Source of the DNA: a bacterium
GTDB lineage: Bacteria > Cyanobacteriota > Vampirovibrionia > Gastranaerophilales > Gastranaerophilaceae
Direction of reading: 5' to 3'
Assembly (NCBI GenBank): GCA_014803505.1
Contig: JAAVBM010000060.1
Span: forward strand, 1 to 64,000
DNA: 64,000 nt
Positions 2,941-17,626 of the stretch are shown piece by piece (position 1 is the first letter of the stretch; each line of letters starts with the position of its first letter). The position numbers and the translations under genes are program-made. Below the pieces are notes generated by a model. It was not told the origin of the DNA and ran no database searches. It worked only from the letters and a program-made list of their open reading frames with translations.

Positions 2941-4071
2941 TTATCCTTTGATAATTTCGCGGGTTTTTGTACGAATTTCTGAGTCAATTTCAAATATCTC
3001 ATCGATATCTGGGGTTTTGACTACGTTATGTTTTTCCATCATTTTTTCGGTAATTTGATAAATGTCATATAATCTTATCTGATCATTCAAGAATGCAAAT
3101 ACTGCTTCTTCATTCGCTGCGTTTAAGCATACAGTAGCACTTCCGCCGGTTTTGCCTGCTTCATATGCGAGATTTAGTGACGGGAATTTATCAAAATCTG
3201 GTTTTTCAAAATCTAATCTTGCGATTTCTGAGAAACTAAAGCTTTTAGATTTAATGCCTTCAAAGCGTTCGGGGTATGTTATTGCATATTGAATCGGAAT
3301 ATGCATGCTAGGTAGTCCTATTTGAGCAATGACACTTCCGTCTTTGTATTCTATAGCTGAATGAACAATACTTTGAGGATGAACAACTACATCAATTTTT
3401 TCATATGGCATATTAAAAAGATGATGAGCTTCGATTATTTCAAGTCCTTTGTTCATTAGGGTTGCGCTGTCCACAGTTATTTTTCTGCCCATATTCCATC
3501 TTGGATGTGCTAAAGCTTGTGTTACTGTGGCGTTTTTCATATCTTCGATTGTTTTGTGTAAGAATGGACCGCCACTTGCTGTTATAATTAGTTTTTCTAC
3601 TTGTGAAATATTCTTGATACATTGATGTATTGCGCAGTGTTCGCTATCTACAGGAATTATATTTACCCCCGCTTCTTTAGCTTTTTTCATTACGATATCG
3701 CCAGCCATAACAAGAGTTTCTTTATTCGCAAGTGCAATATCAATTCCGCAATCTATAGCTTTTAGAGTTGGTTTTAGTCCTATTTTTCCGGATACCGCAA
3801 CTAATATTATATCGTTTTCTCTATTGGAACAGATATCTTCAAGTCCTTCGCTTCCTGTAAGTGAAGATATTCCGTTAATTTCAATTTTTTCATTTGCGCA
3901 TATATATTTTGGCCTAAACTTTAGGGCTTGTTGTTTTAACAGTTCAATATTGTTTCCGCCTGCAAGTGCAATGATTTCAAATTTATCTTGAAGTTTTTCA
4001 ATAACTTCAAGAGCTTGTGTTCCTATGGAGCCTGTTGAGCCTAGTATGCTTATTTTTCTTTTTTTGTTCAT
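2941..4071 (-). CDS. dxr: 1-deoxy-D-xylulose 5-phosphate reductoisomerase
   Basis: ILGSTGSIGTQ, VDSEHCAIHQ, ITASGGPF, TVDSATLMNKGLEIIEA, ALANKET. Confidence 0.98.
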   Translation of the reverse strand: MNKKRKISILGSTGSIGTQALEVIEKLQDKFEIIALAGGNNIELLKQQALKFRPKYICANEKIEINGISSLTGSEGLEDICSNRENDIILVAVSGKIGLKPTLKAIDCGIDIALANKETLVMAGDIVMKKAKEAGVNIIPVDSEHCAIHQCIKNISQVEKLIITASGGPFLHKTIEDMKNATVTQALAHPRWNMGRKITVDSATLMNKGLEIIEAHHLFNMPYEKIDVVVHPQSIVHSAIEYKDGSVIAQIGLPSMHIPIQYAITYPERFEGIKSKSFSFSEIARLDFEKPDFDKFPSLNLAYEAGKTGGSATVCLNAANEEAVFAFLNDQIRLYDIYQITEKMMEKHNVVKTPDIDEIFEIDSEIRTKTREIIKG

Positions 4072-6010: not shown

Positions 6011-6016
6011 TATACT
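6011..6016 (+). promoter_or_regulatory. Putative -10 box of the phage cassette
   Basis: TATACT upstream of the structured leader; no convincing -35 at 17 bp. Confidence 0.35.
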
Positions 6017-6042
6017 AGAAATGTAATCGGTTAAGGCTCACG

Positions 6043-6104
6043 CTCGGGAGAATAAAAACTCCTAAAGATTATTAAATCTTTTGATAGCAAAGTTGTTTGC
6101 CGAG
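6043..6104 (+). ncRNA. Predicted cloverleaf/four-way-junction leader RNA element
   Basis: CTCG(6043-46)/CGAG(6101-04) closes three hairpins: GGAG-8nt-CTCC, AAAGATT-ATTA-AATCTTT, GCAAA-GTTG-TTTGC. Confidence 0.45.
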
Positions 6105-6130
6105 AGTTTCGATACAGGAAGAGTGTATTT

Positions 6131-6493
6131 ATGGGATATATTCATTGCTGTGGAGGACTTCGTAAAACTAAAAGTTTTGTGTTGTCTCCTACAGGTAATT
6201 TTGTTGTGTGTGAATTGGATTTTTTAACCAAGTGTCCGGTTTGCGGACATACAGTTCTACAACTAACAAGAATTGATGATAAAGACAATATTTCAACAAT
6301 CAGGTATGTTAACAAGTCTGCAAGAAAAAATTTTGAAAAGTTTAAATCAAAAATTTTATATGAAAGACGATACTATGATTATTCAAGATATAGTGGAGGA
6401 CGTTTTTATTTAAATTACAACGAGTTTGGTGTTAAGAAAAGATGCTATTCAAATTTGTCGACCTTGAAAATAGGTTTGTGTTCAAATTCCTAG
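6131..6493 (+). CDS. Hypothetical cysteine-containing protein, first gene of the phage-like cassette
   Basis: 120 aa with HCCGG and CPVCGH motifs; AGGAAG upstream. Confidence 0.6.
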   Translation: MGYIHCCGGLRKTKSFVLSPTGNFVVCELDFLTKCPVCGHTVLQLTRIDDKDNISTIRYVNKSARKNFEKFKSKILYERRYYDYSRYSGGRFYLNYNEFGVKKRCYSNLSTLKIGLCSNS

Positions 6494-6530
6494 GCTATTC
6501 AATTTGTATATTACTTACCCTAATTGCTAT

Positions 6531-6574
6531 TAAGAGGGGATTTTCTGTTAAACTCCTTTCCCCTCTTATTTTAT
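6531..6574 (+). terminator. Terminator-like hairpin inside phage-like cassette
   Basis: TAAGAGGGGA ... TCCCCTCTTA followed by TTTTATT. Confidence 0.6.
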
Positions 6575-6620
6575 TAAAACGGAGATATTATTAAATAATA
6601 GAAAGTAGGCTTAAGGTAAT

Positions 6621-6875
6621 ATGAGGTTAATTAAATTAGCGACAAAAGGAAGTTTGATGAAGCTATCTAGAAGAGAACATGACGTGTTAACTCTGATTGC
6701 ATGCGGGTTTACTGATAAAGAGGTTGCGTTAAAGCTTAAGATTTCCGTTAGAACTGTCCAAACGCATATTGAAACCGTTATATTGAAGCTTCAGGCTAGA
6801 AACAGAGTTAATGCAGTTGTAGTTTATATGAAAATAAATCCGAAATGGAAGATAGGAGAAAGGTATGTCTTATGA
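6621..6875 (+). CDS. LuxR/GerE-type HTH transcriptional regulator (small)
   Basis: LSRREHDVLTLIACGFTDKEVALKLKISVRTVQTHIETVILKLQARNRVNAVV, canonical GerE HTH; no receiver domain. Confidence 0.9.
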   Translation: MRLIKLATKGSLMKLSRREHDVLTLIACGFTDKEVALKLKISVRTVQTHIETVILKLQARNRVNAVVVYMKINPKWKIGERYVL

Positions 6876-7369
6876 AAAGGATTATTTTACATTGGACTGC
6901 TGGTCGGTATTATCCGACTCAGTTTGAAAAAAATTATTATCATTATTTAGTGGATAAAGATGGGCGTATTTATAATGGAATTTATACTCCAGAAGATAAT
7001 TCTAATTGTTCGGATGGGGTTTATGCAGCGCACACAGGTGGTGGAAATACCGGATCTATAGGAGTAGCTTTATGCGGGATGAACGGATTTAAGTCTGAAA
7101 AAGCCGTTGGTGATTTTCCTATAACTGCTGTCCAATTTGAAGCTTGTATGAAATTCTGTTCTGATTTGTGTCAAAAATATTCGATAAATATTGATTCTGA
7201 TTCTGTAATGACTCATTATGAATTTGGACAAAAAAATCCGAAAACTACCAGTTATGGAAAGATTGATATTATTTATTTACCTCCATATTCTTGGGTTAGC
7301 AAAAATGATATTGGCAGTTTTATCCGTTCAAAAATTCGATGGTATAAAGAAAAAAGTTTAAGAGGTTAG
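6872..7369 (+). CDS. N-acetylmuramoyl-L-alanine amidase (Amidase_2/PGRP-like endolysin)
   Basis: LHWTAG, AAHTGGGNTGSIGVALCG, VMTHYEFG; start at 6872 gives an ATGA overlap with the upstream regulator. Confidence 0.9.
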   Translation: MKRIILHWTAGRYYPTQFEKNYYHYLVDKDGRIYNGIYTPEDNSNCSDGVYAAHTGGGNTGSIGVALCGMNGFKSEKAVGDFPITAVQFEACMKFCSDLCQKYSINIDSDSVMTHYEFGQKNPKTTSYGKIDIIYLPPYSWVSKNDIGSFIRSKIRWYKEKSLRG

Positions 7370-7374
7370 ATTTT

Positions 7375-8895
7375 ATGGATGTAAATTATTTCAATTTATC
7401 CGGCGGGATAAATCAATCTTCAACTAAAACCGAATTGGGTGTAAATCCAAAAGTTATTTATTGGTCAGATTCTGAAAATATTGAAATTTATAATAATAAA
7501 GGATTGATTAAACAAAAAGGAAATACAATCTTATTACAGCTTCCGGAACAAGAATCTATTATTGGTTTGAGGGAAATGGAATCGGAAGATGCCCTAAAAT
7601 TGGTTATTGTTACCAAGTCAGGTAAAATTTATATTTATGCATTATCTTCAGGTACTTTAACTCTTTTAGATAAAACACTTTCAGGGAAAAATGTTCTTTT
7701 TGCAAATTTCTTGCGAGGTGTAGTTATTTCTACTGAATCTGACGAAATGTTTTATATTAAGGACAATGACTCCTACGATATAATTGATTGCAATTTGAAA
7801 GATCGTTTAGGTAAGGTTGTTTATCCTGATTGTATAAGTATTTATCGAGGCAGATTGTGGTGCGCCAAAGAGTCTACTGTTTATTATTCTGCTTTGGGTA
7901 CATATAATGAATTTACGTTGGAAAATGATGCAGGTTATATTAACGATTTTCATACGGATACTGCTGATATTACTGGCATGCAGAATTATAAGGAATATCT
8001 TGCTATTTATAAAAAAAATAGAGTATATTTGTTATCCGGTTCGAGTCCTGCAGACTTTTCTTTAACTCCATTTGCGGATAAAGGTTCTGTGGCAAAGAAT
8101 TCATTGATAAATGTTGATAATAAACAGTATTTTTTGAGTAATGGTATTTATGCTCTTGAACAGGTCGGGGAATTAAATCAAATTCGATTAGGTTCTGAAA
8201 TTTCTTTAAATATAAAAAATGAATTTGATAAGTTTGATACCTCAAGAATAAAAAATACAATTGCTCTTCATTATCAAAACAAAAGTCAAACTTGGTATTT
8301 CTTTCCTTATTTGGGTGATGATTATTTCCATACAATATGGATAAATGATTATCTTAATAGAGCTTGGTTTAAACGTGTATTGCCGCAAAATATAACAGCT
8401 GCTTGTAATTTTAATTCATATATTGTTACGGGTGATGATCAGGGAAGAATTTATTATGAAGATTATGGTACAACGTTTGATGGCAAAAGTATTAATTTTC
8501 TTTGGAAGTCCCCATTTTTGTCTTTAGGAAATGTGCATCATAGAAAATTAATTGATGAATTTTATTTTGTTTTGGATGATTTGCACGATAATAATTTTGA
8601 TTTTTCTGTATATAAGGATTATGACAGTAATTATTCTGAAGGTGCAGAATGTATTTGTTCCAGACATTTTAATCAGTTAATTTGGGCTGACGAATATTCT
8701 TCTGACTGTGAAGATTTTTGTTGGGCTGTTGATGATGCTGAAGTTCCAGTCTGGTCCATTGGAACTGATGTACTTGAAAAAGCTGAAATATTTGGCAGTT
8801 GTTATTCTGTCCAATTATGTATAGAAGGCAAAAATTTCGAGGACAATTGCGCTATTATCGGACTTCAATTCAGAGAAATTTATAACGATGACTAA
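7375..8895 (+). CDS. Phage tail hub / stabilization protein (P22 gp10-like), putative
   Basis: 506 aa; GGINQSS..., W-D-N-E-N/G-L-KQ-G pattern, repeated beta-rich blades, YYSALGTYNEFTLENDAGYI; cassette context. Confidence 0.6.
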   Translation: MDVNYFNLSGGINQSSTKTELGVNPKVIYWSDSENIEIYNNKGLIKQKGNTILLQLPEQESIIGLREMESEDALKLVIVTKSGKIYIYALSSGTLTLLDKTLSGKNVLFANFLRGVVISTESDEMFYIKDNDSYDIIDCNLKDRLGKVVYPDCISIYRGRLWCAKESTVYYSALGTYNEFTLENDAGYINDFHTDTADITGMQNYKEYLAIYKKNRVYLLSGSSPADFSLTPFADKGSVAKNSLINVDNKQYFLSNGIYALEQVGELNQIRLGSEISLNIKNEFDKFDTSRIKNTIALHYQNKSQTWYFFPYLGDDYFHTIWINDYLNRAWFKRVLPQNITAACNFNSYIVTGDDQGRIYYEDYGTTFDGKSINFLWKSPFLSLGNVHHRKLIDEFYFVLDDLHDNNFDFSVYKDYDSNYSEGAECICSRHFNQLIWADEYSSDCEDFCWAVDDAEVPVWSIGTDVLEKAEIFGSCYSVQLCIEGKNFEDNCAIIGLQFREIYNDD

Positions 8896-8953
8896 ATAGA
8901 ATTTACTCACCACTCATATATTTTGTAGAACTACTATTGTAAAACGAAAGGAA

Positions 8954-9844
8954 ATGGAAATGACAGATTTTACAACAACTTATGGTGCTTTTATTCCTGA
9001 ATTATGGAGTAAAAAACTTAACAGCATGTTAGAAAAAAACTGCGTGATGATGCAGTGTGTTAACAGAAATTGGGAAGGCGATATTAAACAGCAAGGTGAT
9101 ACAGTAAAAATTATTACTCCAGCAGATGTAACTGTTTCTACCTTAACTGGAGATAGTATTGCTTATTCTTCATTAACTCCAACTTCAATGGATTTGGAAA
9201 TCAATCAGAAAAAATTCTTTGCATTTAAGATTGATGATGTTGCGAAAGTTCAATCTAATGCAGATATTATGGAAGCTCATCTTAACAATGCTAAGAAAGC
9301 TATTGAAGAAGTTCAAGATTCTTATTTACTTGCAATGCATACAGATGTAGTTGAAGATAATACTGTAGGGACTGAAAGTTCACCTATCGTGCTAAATAAA
9401 TCAACAATTTATGAATATTTTGTTAAATTATCTCTTGCGTTAAAAAATTCTGATGCTGTATATGCTGGTGTTCGACCTTGGGTTGTTATCAATCCAAATA
9501 TTGAGGCTTATTTGTTACAAAGCCCTGAATTTATCAGTGCATACAAAGTTGCCGATGAAACTTTAAGAGAGGGGTCTATTGGTAGAATTGCCGGTATGGA
9601 CGTATTAGTTTCAACTAACTTAACTGCTGTAGATGGAAAATACTATGTTTTAGCAGGAACAAATGATGCAATTACATTTGCTTCTCAACTTGCTAAAATT
9701 GAAAGTCTAAGAGATAAAGACAGTTTTTCTGATTTAGTGAGAGGTTTATATTTGTATGGTGCGAAAACTGTTCAACCTAAAGCTCTTGCAAAAATGATTA
9801 TTTCTGCTGATTCAACTTCTTCTACACCTGAAATTTCTGAATAA
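8954..9844 (+). CDS. Major capsid protein (HK97-fold, P22-coat-like), putative
   Basis: 296 aa; MTDFTTTYGAFIPELWSKKLNSMLEKN..., GDTVKIITPADVTVS, GRIAGMDVLVSTNL, TFASQLAKIESLRDKDSFSDLVRGLYLYGAKTV. Confidence 0.85.
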   Translation: MEMTDFTTTYGAFIPELWSKKLNSMLEKNCVMMQCVNRNWEGDIKQQGDTVKIITPADVTVSTLTGDSIAYSSLTPTSMDLEINQKKFFAFKIDDVAKVQSNADIMEAHLNNAKKAIEEVQDSYLLAMHTDVVEDNTVGTESSPIVLNKSTIYEYFVKLSLALKNSDAVYAGVRPWVVINPNIEAYLLQSPEFISAYKVADETLREGSIGRIAGMDVLVSTNLTAVDGKYYVLAGTNDAITFASQLAKIESLRDKDSFSDLVRGLYLYGAKTVQPKALAKMIISADSTSSTPEISE

Positions 9845-9866
9845 GTATAGTGTAACGATATGTTTA

Positions 9867-9903
9867 TGTACTCTCTTCAAACAAGTTGAGAGTACATTTT
9901 CTT
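9867..9903 (+). terminator. Rho-independent terminator after the capsid gene
   Basis: TGTACTCTC-12nt-GAGAGTACA-TTTTCTT perfect 9-bp stem. Confidence 0.75.
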
Positions 9904-9918
9904 CAAGAAAAGGAGATT

Positions 9919-10170
9919 ATGATGTTCGTAAATCTAAAAACTAGAATACAAGAATTGGCAAGGAATGCTGTATTTGCAGCAGAAGCTGAGCTTGGAACCG
10001 GAAAAGGACAAGAAAAAAAGAAAATTGCGATTGAGTATGTTCTAAAAAATCTACGTTTACCGCAATTTGTAAAAACAATTATTTCTGTTCTGCTTTCCAG
10101 TTTTATTGATGATGCAGTTGAGCTTGCTGTAACTTATATGAATTCTTTGTCACAAAACAAGGAGAAATAA
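9919..10170 (+). CDS. Small protein resembling LLH-type phage holins, putative
   Basis: AVFAAEAELGTGKGQEKKKIAIEYVLKNL pattern; start taken at ATG 9919 after AAAGGAG. Confidence 0.45.
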   Translation: MMFVNLKTRIQELARNAVFAAEAELGTGKGQEKKKIAIEYVLKNLRLPQFVKTIISVLLSSFIDDAVELAVTYMNSLSQNKEK

Positions 10171-10174
10171 ACTT

Positions 10175-10837
10175 ATGCAAAATCAAATTAATAATGGACA
10201 ATTCCAAAATGGTATTTCATCGTCTGCCGTGATTCCACAGACGAATCTTACGACAAATTATGTCGATATAATTCAACAATTGCAAAGCGCAATTAAAACT
10301 GATGCACAAAGAGTACAGCTTCTTATGCAACAAGGTACAATTACTCAGGATCAAGGACAATTTCTAATGACCCAATTGGCTAAAAAATTGAATGAAATTA
10401 ACATGTGTAATAATGCTGTTCCTCAAGGTGTTCAGGCTCCTGCGTCTCAACCTATGGTTCAAACTATAAATCCTATGGATTTGTTTAACCAAGAAAATCC
10501 TAACTTTTTTGATAAAGAAGGTCGAGGAGATATCTTGAATTATATCAAGGATTTGGATATGGATAAAGATGAAATAACCAAAATTGCTAGAATGGTTGAA
10601 AATCTTGAAAATTCAGCTGTTAATAGTTATTTGAAAAAATCCGCTCATGAAAAATCATTGAATGACGAGAACTCTGTTGCAAAAAGTAAATTGACGGCAT
10701 ATGCCCAAAATGCTCAAAAAGACAACAATTTAGGAAAAATTTTCACTCGTGCGGATATCGGCAATATGAGTGGTGAAGAGTTTGATAAAAATGAAAAATT
10801 AATCATGGAACAAGTAAAACAAGGATTGATTAAGTAA
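10175..10837 (+). CDS. Putative scaffold-like phage protein
   Basis: 220 aa, Q/N-rich N-terminus, charged helical C-terminus, next to capsid gene. Confidence 0.4.
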   Translation: MQNQINNGQFQNGISSSAVIPQTNLTTNYVDIIQQLQSAIKTDAQRVQLLMQQGTITQDQGQFLMTQLAKKLNEINMCNNAVPQGVQAPASQPMVQTINPMDLFNQENPNFFDKEGRGDILNYIKDLDMDKDEITKIARMVENLENSAVNSYLKKSAHEKSLNDENSVAKSKLTAYAQNAQKDNNLGKIFTRADIGNMSGEEFDKNEKLIMEQVKQGLIK

Positions 10838-10868
10838 TTTTTTAATAATTCAAATACTCGAAAGGTTA

Positions 10869-10898
10869 GAATAGGGGGATTCCCCTATTCTTTCTTTT
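10869..10898 (+). terminator. Rho-independent terminator within phage-like cassette
   Basis: GAATAGGGG-GATT-CCCCTATTC-TTTCTTTT. Confidence 0.75.
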
Positions 10899-10917
10899 CA
10901 AAATGATAGGAGAAATT

Positions 10918-11556
10918 ATGAACTTTTTAGAACTTATAAATAAATGTTTGCTTGAATTGAATTATAAACAAGTAAATACTTTTTCAGAGTTAGTTAAGTA
11001 TGATCACAAAAAAATTCTGAGTATTTTAAACATAATTAACAAAGAAATTTGTAATATTGAAGGTTGGAATTTTTTGTTAAGACGTAAAAAATTAACATTG
11101 CCTAAAAATACTACTGAAATAAAAAACACTGTCCCAGGTAGAATCTGGTATTTGCTGATAGATGGAGAAAAATATAATTATACGTCGGATATCGAACCTT
11201 TTTTTACAGGTAAAGTTCGAGGAAAAAGTTTTTCACTTTATGCTGATAACTTACTATTTCCAAAGTTTGATTCCAAAAAGGAGATTGATGTAATTTATTA
11301 TACCAATAAATGTGTTACGGATTCTGAAGGGAATGAAAAAGTTGATTTGGAAGATGAAACTGATGAATCTTTGATTCCTTTGCCATTTGCAGAACAACTT
11401 TTAGTTTACGGTACTTGTTTACGTGTAAAAGCTAATCCTCAGCATATAAAATTTTCTTACTGGATGAGCATGTATAAAGAGGCATTGTTAAATCTTAAAT
11501 CTAAAAGCTCCGGATTTGTTACTGATGCTCCGGTAGTAAGACTTTTTAGAAAATAA
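10918..11556 (+). CDS. Putative head-tail adaptor / connector (P22 gp4-like)
   Basis: ~213-217 aa; LINKCLLELNY...INKEICNIEGWNFLLRRKKLTLP...PFAEQLLVYGTCLRVK, adaptor-like architecture; start at internal Met 10918. Confidence 0.5.
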   Translation: MNFLELINKCLLELNYKQVNTFSELVKYDHKKILSILNIINKEICNIEGWNFLLRRKKLTLPKNTTEIKNTVPGRIWYLLIDGEKYNYTSDIEPFFTGKVRGKSFSLYADNLLFPKFDSKKEIDVIYYTNKCVTDSEGNEKVDLEDETDESLIPLPFAEQLLVYGTCLRVKANPQHIKFSYWMSMYKEALLNLKSKSSGFVTDAPVVRLFRK

Positions 11557-11684
11557 TGGTAAAAAAAACAGGAAGTCCTTTTCATTCCCCCCTGTTAAGA
11601 TTTACACTAGCCGAAATATAAATAGCATGTATATTATACAAATTATTTGGTAAAAAAACAAATTTTGATAAGAAATGTAAAGAG

Positions 11685-12119
11685 ATGAAACAATTAACAA
11701 CACAACAAAAACTGTTTGTATTGGAATATATTAAAACCTTGGATGGAGAAAAAGCCCTTAAATCAGCAGGATATAAGGTTAAAAACCTTAAAGCTTTTGC
11801 TTCTGAACTATTATCTAAGGATTATATTATTCAGGAGATAAAAAATCAATTAAAGTTGCAAATAAATACGCTTAATGTCCAAAAAGGATATGTTATTCAA
11901 AAGCTGTTGCAGATTGCTGAATTTTCGCTTGCAGAAGAAGATATAACTGATAAAGATGGTAACTTTACAGGTAAGAAAAAGCTTCGTGATTCTTCTGCAG
12001 GATTAAAGGCGCTCGAAAGTTTGTGTAAATACCTTGGTTTTTCTTCTAATAATTCTGATACGGAATATCATGAAGCAAAAATTATAACTATTTCAAATCT
12101 TGATGATGAGAAAATATAG
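11685..12119 (+). CDS. Terminase small subunit
   Basis: LTTQQKLFVLEYIKTLDGEKALKSAGYKVKNLKAFASELLSKDYIIQEI (Terminase_2-like HTH); LRDSSAGLKALESLCKYLG. Confidence 0.85.
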   Translation: MKQLTTQQKLFVLEYIKTLDGEKALKSAGYKVKNLKAFASELLSKDYIIQEIKNQLKLQINTLNVQKGYVIQKLLQIAEFSLAEEDITDKDGNFTGKKKLRDSSAGLKALESLCKYLGFSSNNSDTEYHEAKIITISNLDDEKI

Positions 12120-12141
12120 AAATTTATGAAAGGTATTAAAT

Positions 12142-12492
12142 ATGAAAGAAGATAAAGAAATCGAAAAGCTTCTTTTAAATGATGAAGCTTATGAAAAATT
12201 TGTAAATGCAAAAATTGAAAAAGAATTTGAAAAAGAGCTTGATAATTTAGGAATCAAGAAAGAAAAATTTATAACTGATTTTAAACTTGTTCCTCGAGAA
12301 AAGCTTTTTTCAAAACAAGCAACTTATATTGTAATGAATAAAAAAAGTAAGACAAAATCTTTTATCAATGGAATGCAAGCTGAAAGTTTTTTAGGCTCTG
12401 AAAATTCTATAAGAGAAAAATTTGTATCAGGGCAGACGGATTCTTTTGTCAGCGGGGATAACTTTGTCAAATTTTATAAACTAAAAGTGTAG
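12142..12492 (+). CDS. Hypothetical phage-cassette protein
   Basis: 116 aa intact ORF between terS and GNAT. Confidence 0.6.
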   Translation: MKEDKEIEKLLLNDEAYEKFVNAKIEKEFEKELDNLGIKKEKFITDFKLVPREKLFSKQATYIVMNKKSKTKSFINGMQAESFLGSENSIREKFVSGQTDSFVSGDNFVKFYKLKV

Positions 12493-12495
12493 AAT

Positions 12496-13023
12496 ATGTG
12501 TAAATTCGTACAAGTTATATACAATCCTAATTTGGGACTATACGCGAATCTGGATTATATTTCAGATATTCAAAAATGTTATAGCCGATATGCTAAATAT
12601 CTCCAAGATGATTTTATGCATTTTGAAAATGATGTTTATTCTTTTTTAGCCCATACATATCCTTTCTTTTGGGCAATTCTGACCAGAGATGATGAATTTA
12701 TGGGATTTGTATTGTTGGACAATTTTATCGGAAATGATAATTGTCTGTATAGTGCAGAATTGACAACTTGTTTTAATAGACAAGCTTGGGGTGATTTTAC
12801 TAAATATTGCGCAAAGATTTTTTTGAAAAAATGTTTTGATGAACTTGGATTGTCGAAGATAAAAGCTCAAGTTTATCCTGATAATTTTAGAACAAAAATG
12901 CTGTTAAAATCGGCAGGCTTTGAGTATGAAACTACTTTGAAAGCTGAAACTTTGCGCAAAGGGAAACCTCAAGATTTGGATGTTTATGCTTTGTATCGAA
13001 CTTACTATTACAAAACGAGGTAA
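12496..13023 (+). CDS. GNAT-family acetyltransferase
   Basis: FDELGLSKIKAQVYPDNFRTKMLLKSAGFEYETTLKAETLRKGKPQDLDVYALYR, GNAT C-terminal half. Confidence 0.85.
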   Translation: MCKFVQVIYNPNLGLYANLDYISDIQKCYSRYAKYLQDDFMHFENDVYSFLAHTYPFFWAILTRDDEFMGFVLLDNFIGNDNCLYSAELTTCFNRQAWGDFTKYCAKIFLKKCFDELGLSKIKAQVYPDNFRTKMLLKSAGFEYETTLKAETLRKGKPQDLDVYALYRTYYYKTR

Positions 13024-13026
13024 ATT

Positions 13027-14724
13027 ATGATTGAAACTAAAGTTAAGTTATCATCAACAGCTGATAATGTCGATGAACAGCTTTTGATGAATAATATTGT
13101 AGAAAAATATGATTATTATGATGAACAACGTAGTTCTCAACTTTCTGATAACAGATTGGTAAGATATGCTATTTATAATTCGGATATTCCAAAAGTTAAC
13201 GGTTGGGATTGCCATATTCAGCTTCCGGAAATTTATGAATTAGCTCAAACGTTAAAATCTCATATTGTTCAGAATTTATATTCTCATCCTGATGGAATGT
13301 TTGATGTATCAGGTATTGATATAAAAACTCAAGAACTTGCAAACAAGCAAAAAGCTATGCTTGTTAATACTTTTGAGGCTATGAAAATTGAAGATGAGAT
13401 GGAGAAAATTATTGATTCTGTCGTTGAAACAGGTGAAGTTACACTGTTTGTCGGTTGGGAAACAAAAACACGCCAGATTCGCAGGCCAATTACATTAGAA
13501 GAACAAATTGCTTATAATACGGACTCTGCTTTTGTGATTGAAGATAAAGTTGTTTATGACAATGCGAAAGTTAAATTTATAAATTACGAAGATTTCGTTT
13601 TTGATAAAAACAGTGCAGATAATTGGGATACTTGTTCAAAAATATACAGATCGTATCAAACTTTTGATGAAATAAAATCAAATAGCGCGAATAATATGTT
13701 AAATGCAGAAAAACTGGAAGTCTTGAAAGGAGTGGTGGCTGGTAAAAAACATAAATATAATGAACAATCATCTAATCAAAAAATAGAAGTTTTAGAATTT
13801 TGGGGAGATGTAAATTTACCGTCTGGTGAAGTTCTAAAAAATAAACTTATTGTTGTGGCTGGAAGACGTGTGATTATAAGATATGAGGATAATCCTTTTG
13901 TTATAAATCCGTTTATTCATGCAAATATTATTGAATCTCCGACTACAGGTCGAGGTATTTCACCTTTACGAGTTGCTTTAATATTGAATAATATTTCTTC
14001 AACAATATTGAATAAACAATTAGACGCATTGGCTCTTATGATGAATCCTCCTTATTTGGCTCCAAAAGGTTGCTTTAAAGGACAGCAGGATGTTAGTCCG
14101 GGAAAAATCATTGAGTATGATGCTGCTTTAATGACAACTACTCCAACTCCTTTAGCTTTTGATAAGGCTATGACCGGATGGGATTTCTTGAATTATTTCA
14201 AAACAACTATTGAAAGTGCAACCGGTATTTTTAAAAATATGGCAGGAAATGTTCAGGCCGTTGATAGAACGGCAACAGAAATTAACTATTCTGTTAATGG
14301 ACAGGAAGCTCGTTTGAATATGATACTTGAAGCAATTAATCGTAAAGTTATTGTGCCAATGGTTGAAAAAACCGCAGAAATTATTGCAAATTTCAAATTA
14401 GGTAAAGAAACTATTATGATTAATGATAGAGGTTTAACAGCTTTCATTGATGTAGATGATAATGTCAGAAATTCTACATATATTTATAAATATGGTGATC
14501 GAAAAGCTACATTTGAGCGTAAATCAAAATTAAAAGAGTTGTTTGATGTTATCCAATCATTTGCAAAAGTTCAGGTCGTTTCGGAACGAATTGACTGGTT
14601 AGAATGTTTTAAATTTGCACTTGAACAATATGGTATCGAAAATGCTAATAATTTTTTGAGTGAAGAAAAGGTTCAAGATGGACAAAGTTCATTAAATCAA
14701 ACTCAAAAAACTTTGAAAAAATAG
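13027..14724 (+). CDS. Phage portal protein (podovirus type)
   Basis: 565 aa; head-tail connector-like layout, GRGISPLRVALILNNISSTILNKQLDALALMMNPP, ATEINYSVNGQEARLNMILEAINRKVIVPMVEK. Confidence 0.85.
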   Translation: MIETKVKLSSTADNVDEQLLMNNIVEKYDYYDEQRSSQLSDNRLVRYAIYNSDIPKVNGWDCHIQLPEIYELAQTLKSHIVQNLYSHPDGMFDVSGIDIKTQELANKQKAMLVNTFEAMKIEDEMEKIIDSVVETGEVTLFVGWETKTRQIRRPITLEEQIAYNTDSAFVIEDKVVYDNAKVKFINYEDFVFDKNSADNWDTCSKIYRSYQTFDEIKSNSANNMLNAEKLEVLKGVVAGKKHKYNEQSSNQKIEVLEFWGDVNLPSGEVLKNKLIVVAGRRVIIRYEDNPFVINPFIHANIIESPTTGRGISPLRVALILNNISSTILNKQLDALALMMNPPYLAPKGCFKGQQDVSPGKIIEYDAALMTTTPTPLAFDKAMTGWDFLNYFKTTIESATGIFKNMAGNVQAVDRTATEINYSVNGQEARLNMILEAINRKVIVPMVEKTAEIIANFKLGKETIMINDRGLTAFIDVDDNVRNSTYIYKYGDRKATFERKSKLKELFDVIQSFAKVQVVSERIDWLECFKFALEQYGIENANNFLSEEKVQDGQSSLNQTQKTLKK

Positions 14725-14743
14725 TTGTTTAGGAACATATTTT

Positions 14744-16033
14744 ATGAAATACAAATTACTGAATGCGCAACGAGAATTTTTAGAAATTCCTCATACATTT
14801 TCTCTTGATGTTGCAGTCTATCAAGGCGGGTATGGGTCCGGTAAAACTTTTGCCGGATCCTTACTTGGGATATTATTAGCTTTAAAATTCCCGGGGATTC
14901 GAGGGCTTGTTGGAGCTCAAACATATACACTAGTTCGGGATACAACTCTTCAGACTTATTATGAACATCTAGAAGGCATGAATTTTGTAGAGGGTGTTGA
15001 TTATAAGTGGGTAAGCGCTGAGCAAAAATTACTTTTTCGTAATGGTTCTGAAATCCTTTTTAGACATTTTGATGAGCCTAATAAGTTGAAATCTCTGAAC
15101 TTGGGGTTTGTCGAAATAGAAGAAATGTCTGATGTGCCTTATGATACTTTCAAGATGTTATTGGCTCGTATGCGTCAAAGGGTATCGTCAAAATGGAAAA
15201 ATTTCACTTATAGAATTTTCGGACATACAAACCCCGAAATTCAGAAAGGCTGGATTTATAAAACATTTTTTGAAAATCCACCTCCAAATTATAGGTTAAT
15301 TTGTGCGCCTACTACTCAAAATATTTATCTTCCGGAAGGTTTTTGTGAGGAACTAAAGAAGCTTTATGATAAAGAATATTATGAAACTTTTGTTCTGGGG
15401 AAAGTCGGTAATTATAATCAAAACTTAGTTGTAAAAGATTTTACTGATGAAAATGTAAGGGAAATTAAATATCAGCCGGATTTGGATGTTCATATAAGTT
15501 GTGACTTTAACGTGGATCCTATGGCTTGGGTTCTGGCACATAAGACAGAGGATAAAGTTTTTTATTTTGATGAATTGGTATTAGAAAATACTACAACATC
15601 TAAAACTTGTGATGAATTTTATCGCAGATATCCGAATCATAAAGGGAAAATTATTGTTAATGGTGATGCTTCCGGTGATAATAGAAGTTGTACCAGCGAA
15701 TATACTAACTATGTTATTATCAAAAAGAAGCTGGAATCTTTTGGGTATGAGGTTGATATTAAAATAAAAGCTTTCAATCCTCCTATAAAAAACAGAGTTG
15801 CGGCATTTAATGCAAAAGTGAAAAATGCAAAAGGAGAAATCGGTTTGTATATTTCTCCTAAATGCGAAAAGCTTTTATATAATATCTACAATTTACGTTA
15901 TGTAGAAGGGTCTTCAAAAATAAATGTTCCTACATATACACAGATAAAACAGACAAAAGAGTTAAAGTTTTTATCCCATCCTTTTGATGCGGCGTCTTAT
16001 CTGGTTGATTTTTATTGGCCTATTGTATTGTAG
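14744..16033 (+). CDS. Terminase large subunit
   Basis: Walker A GGYGSGKT, Walker B GFVEIEEMSD, nuclease-domain motifs CDFNVDPMAW and IVNGDASGDN, DAASYLVDF. Confidence 0.95.
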   Translation: MKYKLLNAQREFLEIPHTFSLDVAVYQGGYGSGKTFAGSLLGILLALKFPGIRGLVGAQTYTLVRDTTLQTYYEHLEGMNFVEGVDYKWVSAEQKLLFRNGSEILFRHFDEPNKLKSLNLGFVEIEEMSDVPYDTFKMLLARMRQRVSSKWKNFTYRIFGHTNPEIQKGWIYKTFFENPPPNYRLICAPTTQNIYLPEGFCEELKKLYDKEYYETFVLGKVGNYNQNLVVKDFTDENVREIKYQPDLDVHISCDFNVDPMAWVLAHKTEDKVFYFDELVLENTTTSKTCDEFYRRYPNHKGKIIVNGDASGDNRSCTSEYTNYVIIKKKLESFGYEVDIKIKAFNPPIKNRVAAFNAKVKNAKGEIGLYISPKCEKLLYNIYNLRYVEGSSKINVPTYTQIKQTKELKFLSHPFDAASYLVDFYWPIVL

Positions 16034-16051
16034 GGACGAGAAAGGTTAAAA

Positions 16052-16282
16052 ATGGATTCATTGTTATATTATTCTCCGGTTGTTATTGTAGTGCTTGTAT
16101 TTTTAATTCAGCAGAGAATTGTTGTTACTCCGGAACAACTGGAACGTAAGCACAGAGAGATTTTGTCTGATATTGAAAAAAGATTTGTTTCTCTTAATAG
16201 TTATAAAGATTTAAAATCTCAATTTTCTGAAATTAAAGATAAAATTGATAAAATATATGATTGTTTAATAATTTCAAAATAA
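16052..16282 (+). CDS. Small single-TM coiled-coil protein, last gene of cassette (holin/spanin-like, speculative)
   Basis: 76 aa: N-terminal TM (SPVVIVVLVFLI) then heptad-like coil. Confidence 0.5.
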   Translation: MDSLLYYSPVVIVVLVFLIQQRIVVTPEQLERKHREILSDIEKRFVSLNSYKDLKSQFSEIKDKIDKIYDCLIISK

Positions 16283-17626
16283 CTATAAATTTTCAAGAGC
16301 GGCAATTTTCATATCCTTAAAATCAGGGACTTTGCCGGTCCAAATTTGTTGAGAAGCAACAGCCTGACGGATTAGCATATCTATACCGTTAAGTGTGCGA
16401 TAACCGAGTTTTTTTGCAAGTTTAAGTAAAATAGTGTTTTTCGGATTATATATTACGTCATAAACAAGAGCGTGTTCAGGTAATGTTTTTAGTTCATTTT
16501 CTTCTACCGGAGTATAATCAGCAGCACGACCTTGCATACCTATTGGCGTAGCATTTACAAGTAAATCAATATCTGATAGATTTCTTATTCTTTCAATTTG
16601 ATAAGTGTTAAATTCTATAGATGGGAAAGTTTTTCTCAAGTAATTTAAAAGTTCAAGACTATTTGGTACATTTCTTGTAAATAATTTGATTTCTTTCATA
16701 TTACGTTGTGCCAGAGCAGTTATTGCGGCTCTGGCGGCACCGCCGGTACCAAGTATTCCGGCAACTTTTCCCGAAAGAGTAAAATCTTCAGGTATTGCAT
16801 TTATAAATCCTAATACATCTGTGTTATATCCTGTCATTTCTTTTGTTATAGGGTCTATAACTACAGTATTTACAGCATTTGCAATAGTAGCAGAATCATC
16901 AATTGAGTCTAAAAACATTGTAATCGGTAATTTTAGTGGTATTGTAACGTTAAAACCACTATAATTATTTGATTTTAAGTATTTAATTCTATCTACTAAA
17001 TTTTCAGGAGATGTTTCCAAAATTTCATAAGTTGCATCTTCATTGATACTTTTAAATCCTGCATTGTGAATATATTCTGACAAAGAATGCCCGAGAGGAT
17101 ATCCTATCAATGCAAATTTTTTAGTTTGAGATTTATCTGTATTTTGAGTTGGTATAGTTTGAATGTTACCTGCGTAAGGTTTATAATCATCTTGTAAACG
17201 CGGATGGTTATCGAGATTTCCTGTATATGGCTGTTGAGCCACAGGTGTTATTGGTGTTGAATCTGAATAACTTTCAGGTGTTAACTGTGCCGGAGTTGAT
17301 GAATAATATGTAGTATTCCAATCGGAAGAAGTAGTTGTTTGAGGTTCAGGTTCAATTGAATTTGTGTAATTTGAATGGCTAGGTGTATTATATTCGGATA
17401 TTTCGTTTGTATTATTTATGTTGGTTAAATTTGTTTGTGTATATTGATTATACTTGTTGGTCTCGTTAGTGTATGGCTCACTAACAGAAGTGTTTATTTT
17501 ATTTACCCCTTCATTTACCCCTTCATTTTCTTTTTCCATTTGAGCTTTAAGCTCAGCTAATGAAATATTTACACCTTGAGCTTTGAGTTCTTTGTAACGA
17601 GCAAGCAATTCTTTACTTACAGCCAT
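16283..17626 (-). CDS. aroE: Shikimate dehydrogenase with ~165-aa disordered N-terminal extension
   Basis: KKFALIGYPLGHSLSEYIHN, GFNVTIPLK, GILGTGGAARAA, LLVNATPIGM, YDVIYNP; N-terminal N/T/Y/Q/P-rich region; RBS GAGGT upstream of 17626. Confidence 0.95.
   Translation of the reverse strand: MAVSKELLARYKELKAQGVNISLAELKAQMEKENEGVNEGVNKINTSVSEPYTNETNKYNQYTQTNLTNINNTNEISEYNTPSHSNYTNSIEPEPQTTTSSDWNTTYYSSTPAQLTPESYSDSTPITPVAQQPYTGNLDNHPRLQDDYKPYAGNIQTIPTQNTDKSQTKKFALIGYPLGHSLSEYIHNAGFKSINEDATYEILETSPENLVDRIKYLKSNNYSGFNVTIPLKLPITMFLDSIDDSATIANAVNTVVIDPITKEMTGYNTDVLGFINAIPEDFTLSGKVAGILGTGGAARAAITALAQRNMKEIKLFTRNVPNSLELLNYLRKTFPSIEFNTYQIERIRNLSDIDLLVNATPIGMQGRAADYTPVEENELKTLPEHALVYDVIYNPKNTILLKLAKKLGYRTLNGIDMLIRQAVASQQIWTGKVPDFKDMKIAALENL

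Follow-up and report, generated by a model that had tools for sequence, protein, structure and literature searches.

We analysed a stretch of 64,000 nucleotides (contig JAAVBM010000060.1, positions 1 to 64,000, assembly GCA_014803505.1) from a bacterium of the Gastranaerophilaceae; this whole stretch is called the window below. Positions 6131-16282 contain 13-14 intact open reading frames (ORFs) on one strand, which together encode a podovirus-like head, a packaging motor, a short tail nozzle and lysis genes. The original prediction for this locus had described such a set of intact same-strand ORFs and proposed a domesticated particle system similar to a gene transfer agent (GTA). The gene types it named were all found at this place, and distribution, conserved gene order, a host-matching tree and a low ratio of nonsynonymous to synonymous substitutions (dN/dS) support the proposal.

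A head and packaging cluster between housekeeping genes

The proteins of the window were annotated by family scans (Pfam, PHROG) and by ORF reading. The cluster has the following features.

6011-6016, + strand: conserved -10-like box TATACT ahead of the cluster's first ORF; found in 45 of 50 upstream regions of that gene and in 8% of background upstream regions
6131-6493, + strand: small zinc-ribbon-like protein (g01); no Pfam or PHROG match; present in 17 of 26 clusters, frequent as first gene, not universal
6621-6875, + strand: LuxR/GerE-type helix-turn-helix (HTH) protein, presumed regulator; PF00196 5e-16; start codon uncertain
6845-7369, + strand: N-acetylmuramoyl-L-alanine amidase (Amidase_2, endolysin); PF01510 6e-17, phrog_5867 endolysin 5e-34
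7375-8895, + strand: short-tail nozzle or hub with the fold of T7 gp12 and P22 gp10 (AlphaFold and Foldseek)
8954-9844, + strand: major capsid protein (MCP); phrog_267 4e-52; 44% identity to a Microcystis phage protein
9886-10170, + strand: Holin_LLH-like small protein; PF09682 3e-5, profile positions 36-100 only
10175-10837, + strand: scaffolding protein, from helix prediction and from phage homologues between portal and MCP; its C-terminal ~35 residues (about 188-220) are the tag described below
10903-11556, + strand: head-to-tail adaptor or tail-tubular-like protein; phrog_446/6013 tail protein, ~1e-4 to 4e-5; precedes the nozzle in the phage relative L403
11685-12119, + strand: TerS (Terminase_2); PF03592 4e-16, profile positions 1-130, N-terminal part retained
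12142-12492, + strand: conserved small protein; no family match; phage homologues come after MCP
12496-13023, + strand: GNAT acetyltransferase-like protein; PF13302 9e-10; phage homologues come after the nozzle gene
13027-14724, + strand: portal, SU10-type; PF23899 SU10_portal 8e-18
14744-16033, + strand: TerL (Terminase_3); PF04466 8e-20; ATPase and nuclease motifs intact
16052-16282, + strand: strongly conserved 76-residue protein with a single N-terminal transmembrane (TM) helix plus a predicted coiled coil; 75-80 residues in 26 of 26 clusters; dN/dS 0.02-0.09

The intact Walker and nuclease motifs that had been reported for TerL are present in the window copy and also in nearly all other copies of the cluster. 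Family scans and ORF reading revealed no recognisable integrase, repressor, replication, tape-measure or tail-fibre gene in the cluster, as the original prediction had it, and no recognisable genes for autonomous replication, integration or excision there or in the flanking DNA. Two details had to be corrected. The small protein encoded after the MCP gene is holin-like (its likely start is the ATG at 9919, and the TM-bearing N-terminal third of the family is apparently absent), and a histidine kinase gene separates dxr from the cluster.

The AlphaFold model of the 506-residue protein encoded at 7375-8895 (predicted template modelling score, pTM, 0.79) was matched by Foldseek to the Pa223 tail (7e-18) and P22 gp10 (3e-16), and also to SU10 and T7 gp12. 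The assignment of this protein as a head protein was ruled out, since the model fits podoviral tail nozzles or hubs. The nozzle fold, together with the portal and the adaptor, thus predicts a particle with portal, adaptor and nozzle and with no recognised fibre. The nearest phages by portal sequence are mostly cyanophages, at ~20% identity. The closest described phage is the Microcystis phage MaAM05 (MW495066; MCP 44%, portal 23%), which with 274 kb is far larger than a podovirus.

As predicted, the cluster is embedded in housekeeping DNA, with the histidine kinase gene (dxr beyond it) on one side and aroE on the other. Of the proposed inheritance next to aroE and dxr, the dxr/kinase side stood, being conserved as the 5' flank in the genus, whereas the aroE junction was seen in this genome only. 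In other genera the 5' flank is often zupT/radical-SAM, and the 3' side carries a hook-like protein and SecA. The GC content (0.29-0.33 inside, 0.30-0.37 outside) does not set the cluster apart, and its skew mirrors the gene strand; composition shows no sign of recent entry. Positions 6011-6130 form a conserved leader before the first cluster gene (TATACT, GGTTAAGG) which may contain a regulatory element; the start of the element originally given, 6011, coincides with the TATACT box. A scan with Rfam gave sub-threshold matches only. On the other side, the shikimate dehydrogenase gene (16283-17626) has a long N/T/S-rich N-terminal extension ahead of the enzyme domain.

Distribution and inheritance of the cluster

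A search for TerL across relatives, as had been proposed, detected it in 45 of the 46 genus genomes, usually once per genome and with 79-90% identity. At 75% identity or more it occurs in many genera of one family, with the same gene order. With no identity limit, 177 of the 289 genomes sampled from the family have a TerL match, and phylum-wide sampling gave 119 genomes with a TerL match, almost all within that family. Of 160 relatives in a scan of named genomes (Candidatus Gastranaerophilales / Melainabacteria metagenome-assembled genomes, many from animal gut) 80 were kept, and the core gene order was conserved in 79 of these 80 named Candidatus Gastranaerophilales loci. In the genera g37 and g38 the cluster is rearranged, and the IMG/VR contig L382, which carries portal, MCP, nozzle, scaffold, TerL and GNAT genes in yet another order, is possibly a third version. 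Several deeper-branching genera have an opposite-strand ORF with 2-3 TM segments beside the GNAT gene (between g12 and GNAT in L062, L067, L069, L173, L174 and L182; between ADAP and GNAT in L074 and L075).

Thirty-five IMG/VR contigs with close MCP relatives represent the same cluster, and no added phage genes were seen when they were read with the cluster profiles. IMG/VR thus seems to list pieces of the cluster as viral. Full-length prophages with 57-63% TerL identity do exist in the same genomes; they are sporadic, lie elsewhere and differ in appearance, and are an example of how a mobile relative looks. Both a full prophage at this site and a sporadic, host-incongruent presence of the cluster were searched for as findings that would speak against domestication, and neither was seen. 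In the genera g25, g30, g35 and g41 (L078-L082) most sampled members contain a TerL with 56-59% identity in a larger podovirus-like gene set, which may be another domesticated element or else a prophage that is very common.

Distances of six cluster proteins correlated with those of three host markers (r 0.84; 24 genomes) as well as the markers TopA and RpoB did with each other (0.83). Cluster and host markers had 10 of about 21 splits in common, TopA and RpoB 9. Without the outgroup the Mantel correlation was 0.77 (0 of 5000). The predicted dN/dS below 1 turned out to lie far below it, at 0.02-0.28 in every computable gene and pair, with synonymous sites near saturation in some pairs. For TerS, TerL and the portal it was 0.03-0.12, and for the LuxR/GerE HTH gene 0.05-0.14 in computable pairs. 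Protein lengths are nearly constant (TerL 429-434, TerS 142-145, TM protein 75-80 residues). Together with the low dN/dS, this constancy excludes decay.

Universality in the genus, conserved order, a tree congruent with that of the host, purifying selection, an intact motor and nozzle fold and the lack of recognised autonomous-phage functions are read directly from the sequences. Phage-derived structural and packaging genes are found here in a vertically inherited host cluster under purifying selection and without recognised autonomy genes, features that the cluster has in common with GTAs. Judged by these genomic features, the cluster is very probably domesticated and inherited with the host.

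A tag shared by the scaffold and otherwise unrelated proteins

In true phage contigs (e. g. L401, L403) the gene order is TerL, portal, a homologue of the cluster protein encoded at 10175-10837, and MCP. The homologue has ~290 residues and the same C-terminal tag; in L403 its N-terminus is acidic. Since the phage homologues occupy the canonical place of a scaffold gene, between portal and MCP, the cluster protein is read as a scaffold. The structure prediction for the window protein consists of long helices followed by a C-terminal short-helix bundle at the tag.

In profile searches the final ~35-48 residues of the scaffold were found again in dozens of otherwise unrelated proteins. This family of tagged proteins had been missed by the original prediction and is an addition to it. 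Most of its members are scattered across the genomes, and some are encoded inside or beside the cluster. The searches gave 106 real matches, scaffolds included, and no match among decoys. Tag matches occur in all genomes of the genus, with 8-11 in several; in a few genomes the sole match is so weak that it could be the scaffold. Besides the scaffold, at least five tagged proteins exist in the genome studied here:

DUF6973 protein beside an ORF with three TM segments
lipase-like protein
lysozyme-like protein (phrog_27932) beside a signal-peptide protein
tag-MuF fragment near a MuF-M23 protein
fifth match, at a contig end

At L246:1140-2108 and 3210-3542 of the same genome a MuF-M23 peptidase protein lies near a short tag-MuF protein, i. 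e. two head-targeting modules are found in one small locus.

Across genomes, the tagged proteins carry Lipase_3, lysozyme, GH108, DUF6973, PBECR1 nuclease and MuF-M23 domains. Within one genome the effectors combine almost the same tag module with different toxin domains, as is known from polymorphic toxins. A small polytopic neighbour gene was found at 31 of 52 tagged effectors and at 12 of 147 background genes (p 3e-13). These small membrane or signal-peptide neighbours are putative immunity proteins. A common trafficking module on diverse toxin domains and an adjacent immunity-like gene, two hallmarks of polymorphic toxin systems, are both present. No N-terminal hydrophobic segment was found in any of 78 tagged effectors, and no export signal was detected. 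PADLOC matched none of seven effectors to a known defence family. We found no convincing promoter motif common to cluster and effector genes; close to one tagged GH108 effector there is an ORF (L269:3857-4072) for a LuxR-type HTH protein that resembles the regulator of the cluster.

The presence of tagged effectors is associated with the presence of TerL per genome (125/52/24/88, odds ratio 8.8, counted after removal of weak matches that could be the scaffold itself; related genomes are not independent).

Interpretation and comparison with known systems

A possible interpretation, and in our view the best one, which we hold with moderate confidence, is a podovirus-type GTA-like particle that also packages polymorphic effectors. 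An ancestor of the Candidatus Gastranaerophilales family would have captured a podovirus module for head, packaging and short tail, which has since been inherited in the host genome. Expression of the cluster would lead to a short-tailed capsid, which TerS and TerL would fill with host DNA; judging from its genes, the cluster is likely to package DNA. Amidase and holin-like protein may then release the particles by lysis. Effectors that bear the helical, presumably coat-binding C-terminal tag of the cluster scaffold would enter the procapsid as scaffold subunits do, and some may use MuF domains in addition to or in place of the tag. In the scaffold of P22 the HTH comprises residues 268-303, and cargo fused to that part is loaded into capsids (PMC9962691). 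Because the tag is the C-terminus of the scaffold and P22 scaffold fusions load cargo, there is a strong argument by analogy for loading of the tagged effectors into the particle, and we consider it rather probable. The particle would bring DNA together with envelope- or RNA-active toxins to neighbouring cells, and the small membrane or signal-peptide proteins may protect kin. Particle formation, packaging of host DNA, lytic release, loading and delivery are thus all proposed from gene content.

Several observations weigh against this interpretation. In a co-evolution test the tags of the effectors did not vary with the scaffold of the genus they come from, and a specificity of tag for capsid is therefore not supported. 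Tagged effectors occur without the window-type cluster in the genus g6, the main exception, and in a few others. In three loci of g6 (L260-L262) and one of g20 (L264) tagged DUF6973 or lipase effectors lie between genes of a different head cluster, which has its own PF05065 capsid, PF06810 scaffold-like protein and Terminase_6N and is possibly another domesticated particle. Foldseek gave no significant match of the scaffold model to solved structures. A search of the cluster, as opposed to an open search of the whole genome, turned up neither a tail fibre nor a receptor-binding protein. A host tree built from two markers has some well-supported splits at odds with the cluster tree, which may reflect occasional transfer or recombination. 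Finally, particle, packaged DNA and transfer are predictions from the genes. More tentative still is the widest form of the proposal, a host-owned podovirus-derived particle that moves DNA and delivers a genome-wide modular arsenal of toxins, which would enter the capsid through a copied tail of the scaffolding protein, with the second, unrelated phage-derived head cluster of g6 and g20 appearing to host similar effectors.

Could the particle transfer DNA only, the tagged proteins being a separate family of polymorphic toxins whose tag derives from an old scaffold gene and has no role in loading? All evidence for domestication stands without the effectors, most of which are unlinked to the cluster, and effector tags and scaffold of one genus do not co-vary. 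Yet effectors co-occur with the cluster, are inserted in or beside it in several genomes and lack an export signal, and the tag is homologous to the scaffold C-terminus of true phages, which makes this explanation unlikely. Conversely, the particle could be mainly a weapon, a capsid-borne bacteriocin in which DNA packaging just pressurises or matures the head. This would agree with the number of tagged proteins, which reaches about ten in a genome, with their immunity-like neighbours and with the envelope targets predicted for many of them. The strong constraint on TerS, TerL and portal does not, and retention of the motor is more simply explained by a GTA-type system; we regard a pure weapon as distinctly improbable.

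It is still less probable that the tagged proteins are anti-phage guards, in which the tag senses capsid protein newly made by an infecting phage, and the toxin is then set free in abortive infection. The tag could bind incoming capsids, as related true phages have a scaffold with the same tag, but domains resembling lysozyme, lipase and M23 would not be expected to kill from inside the cell when they lack signal peptides, the neighbours resemble envelope immunity proteins, and the PADLOC result gives no support. The explanation to which we give least credence is the one the original prediction had listed as its alternatives: a satellite, a defective prophage remnant or a fragment of a virulent phage. 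The size of only about 10 kb and the lack of recognised replication or fibre genes would fit. The occurrence in all but one of the 46 genus genomes and in many further genera, the conserved order and the host-like phylogeny contradict it, as do constraint and constant gene lengths, and the IMG/VR contigs show no phage-type extension. A capsid-forming (cfPICI-like) satellite has an integrase and attachment sites and is mobile and sporadic, whereas presence in the genus is universal and no integrase was recognised; sporadic presence or decay, as in a prophage or its remnant, was not found either.

The GTA-like particle carrying effectors can be compared with several known systems. The RcGTA-type GTAs of Alphaproteobacteria are vertically inherited, constrained, phage-derived head and packaging clusters without recognised replication genes and have long siphovirus-like tails. 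Inheritance, constraint and content are alike in the cluster described here, which differs by its short-tail nozzle. Encapsulins and extracellular contractile injection systems are virus-derived host particles with protein cargo. In contrast to these, portal, terminase and tail nozzle are retained here, so that DNA packaging and ejection remain possible. To our knowledge, a tag-based delivery route of this kind differs from the known secretion systems, tailocins and contractile injection systems.

FpGTA of Faecalibacterium (PMC12946183) is likewise a short-tailed GTA of gut bacteria. Its host is a Firmicute, it has a second operon with tail fibre, receptor-binding protein, holin and endolysin, and its TerS is without an obvious DNA-binding domain, whereas TerS here matches its family from the profile start. 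FpGTA particles have been observed; the present system is known from genes. A word search of the available text of that paper (PMC12946183) did not find Gastranaerophilales or Cyanobacteria, and tagged effectors are not mentioned in it. A literature search, with subscription papers and preprints mostly outside its reach, found no GTAs of Gastranaerophilales/Melainabacteria and no scaffold-tag toxins. If our interpretation is true, a GTA-like system would exist in non-photosynthetic relatives of Cyanobacteria, and it would be the second short-tailed example after that of Faecalibacterium, with a much wider host spread.

The nearest parallel among toxins are the MuF polymorphic toxins of temperate phages (PMC5576092), whose toxin domains are fused to a head protein of the phage. 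Some effectors described here bear MuF as well, whereas most have the C-terminal tag of the scaffold instead, are encoded at scattered sites of the host genomes and occur together with a domesticated cluster of capsid genes. Scaffold-fusion capsids of P22 are engineered in the laboratory (PMC9962691), whereas the fusions here are natural and their loading is proposed by analogy. As the tag is short and portable, the loading idea is directly testable. If it holds, the system would show how capsids kept by a host pay their way, by carrying weapons in addition to DNA, and would be a natural form of the loading method that engineers built for P22.

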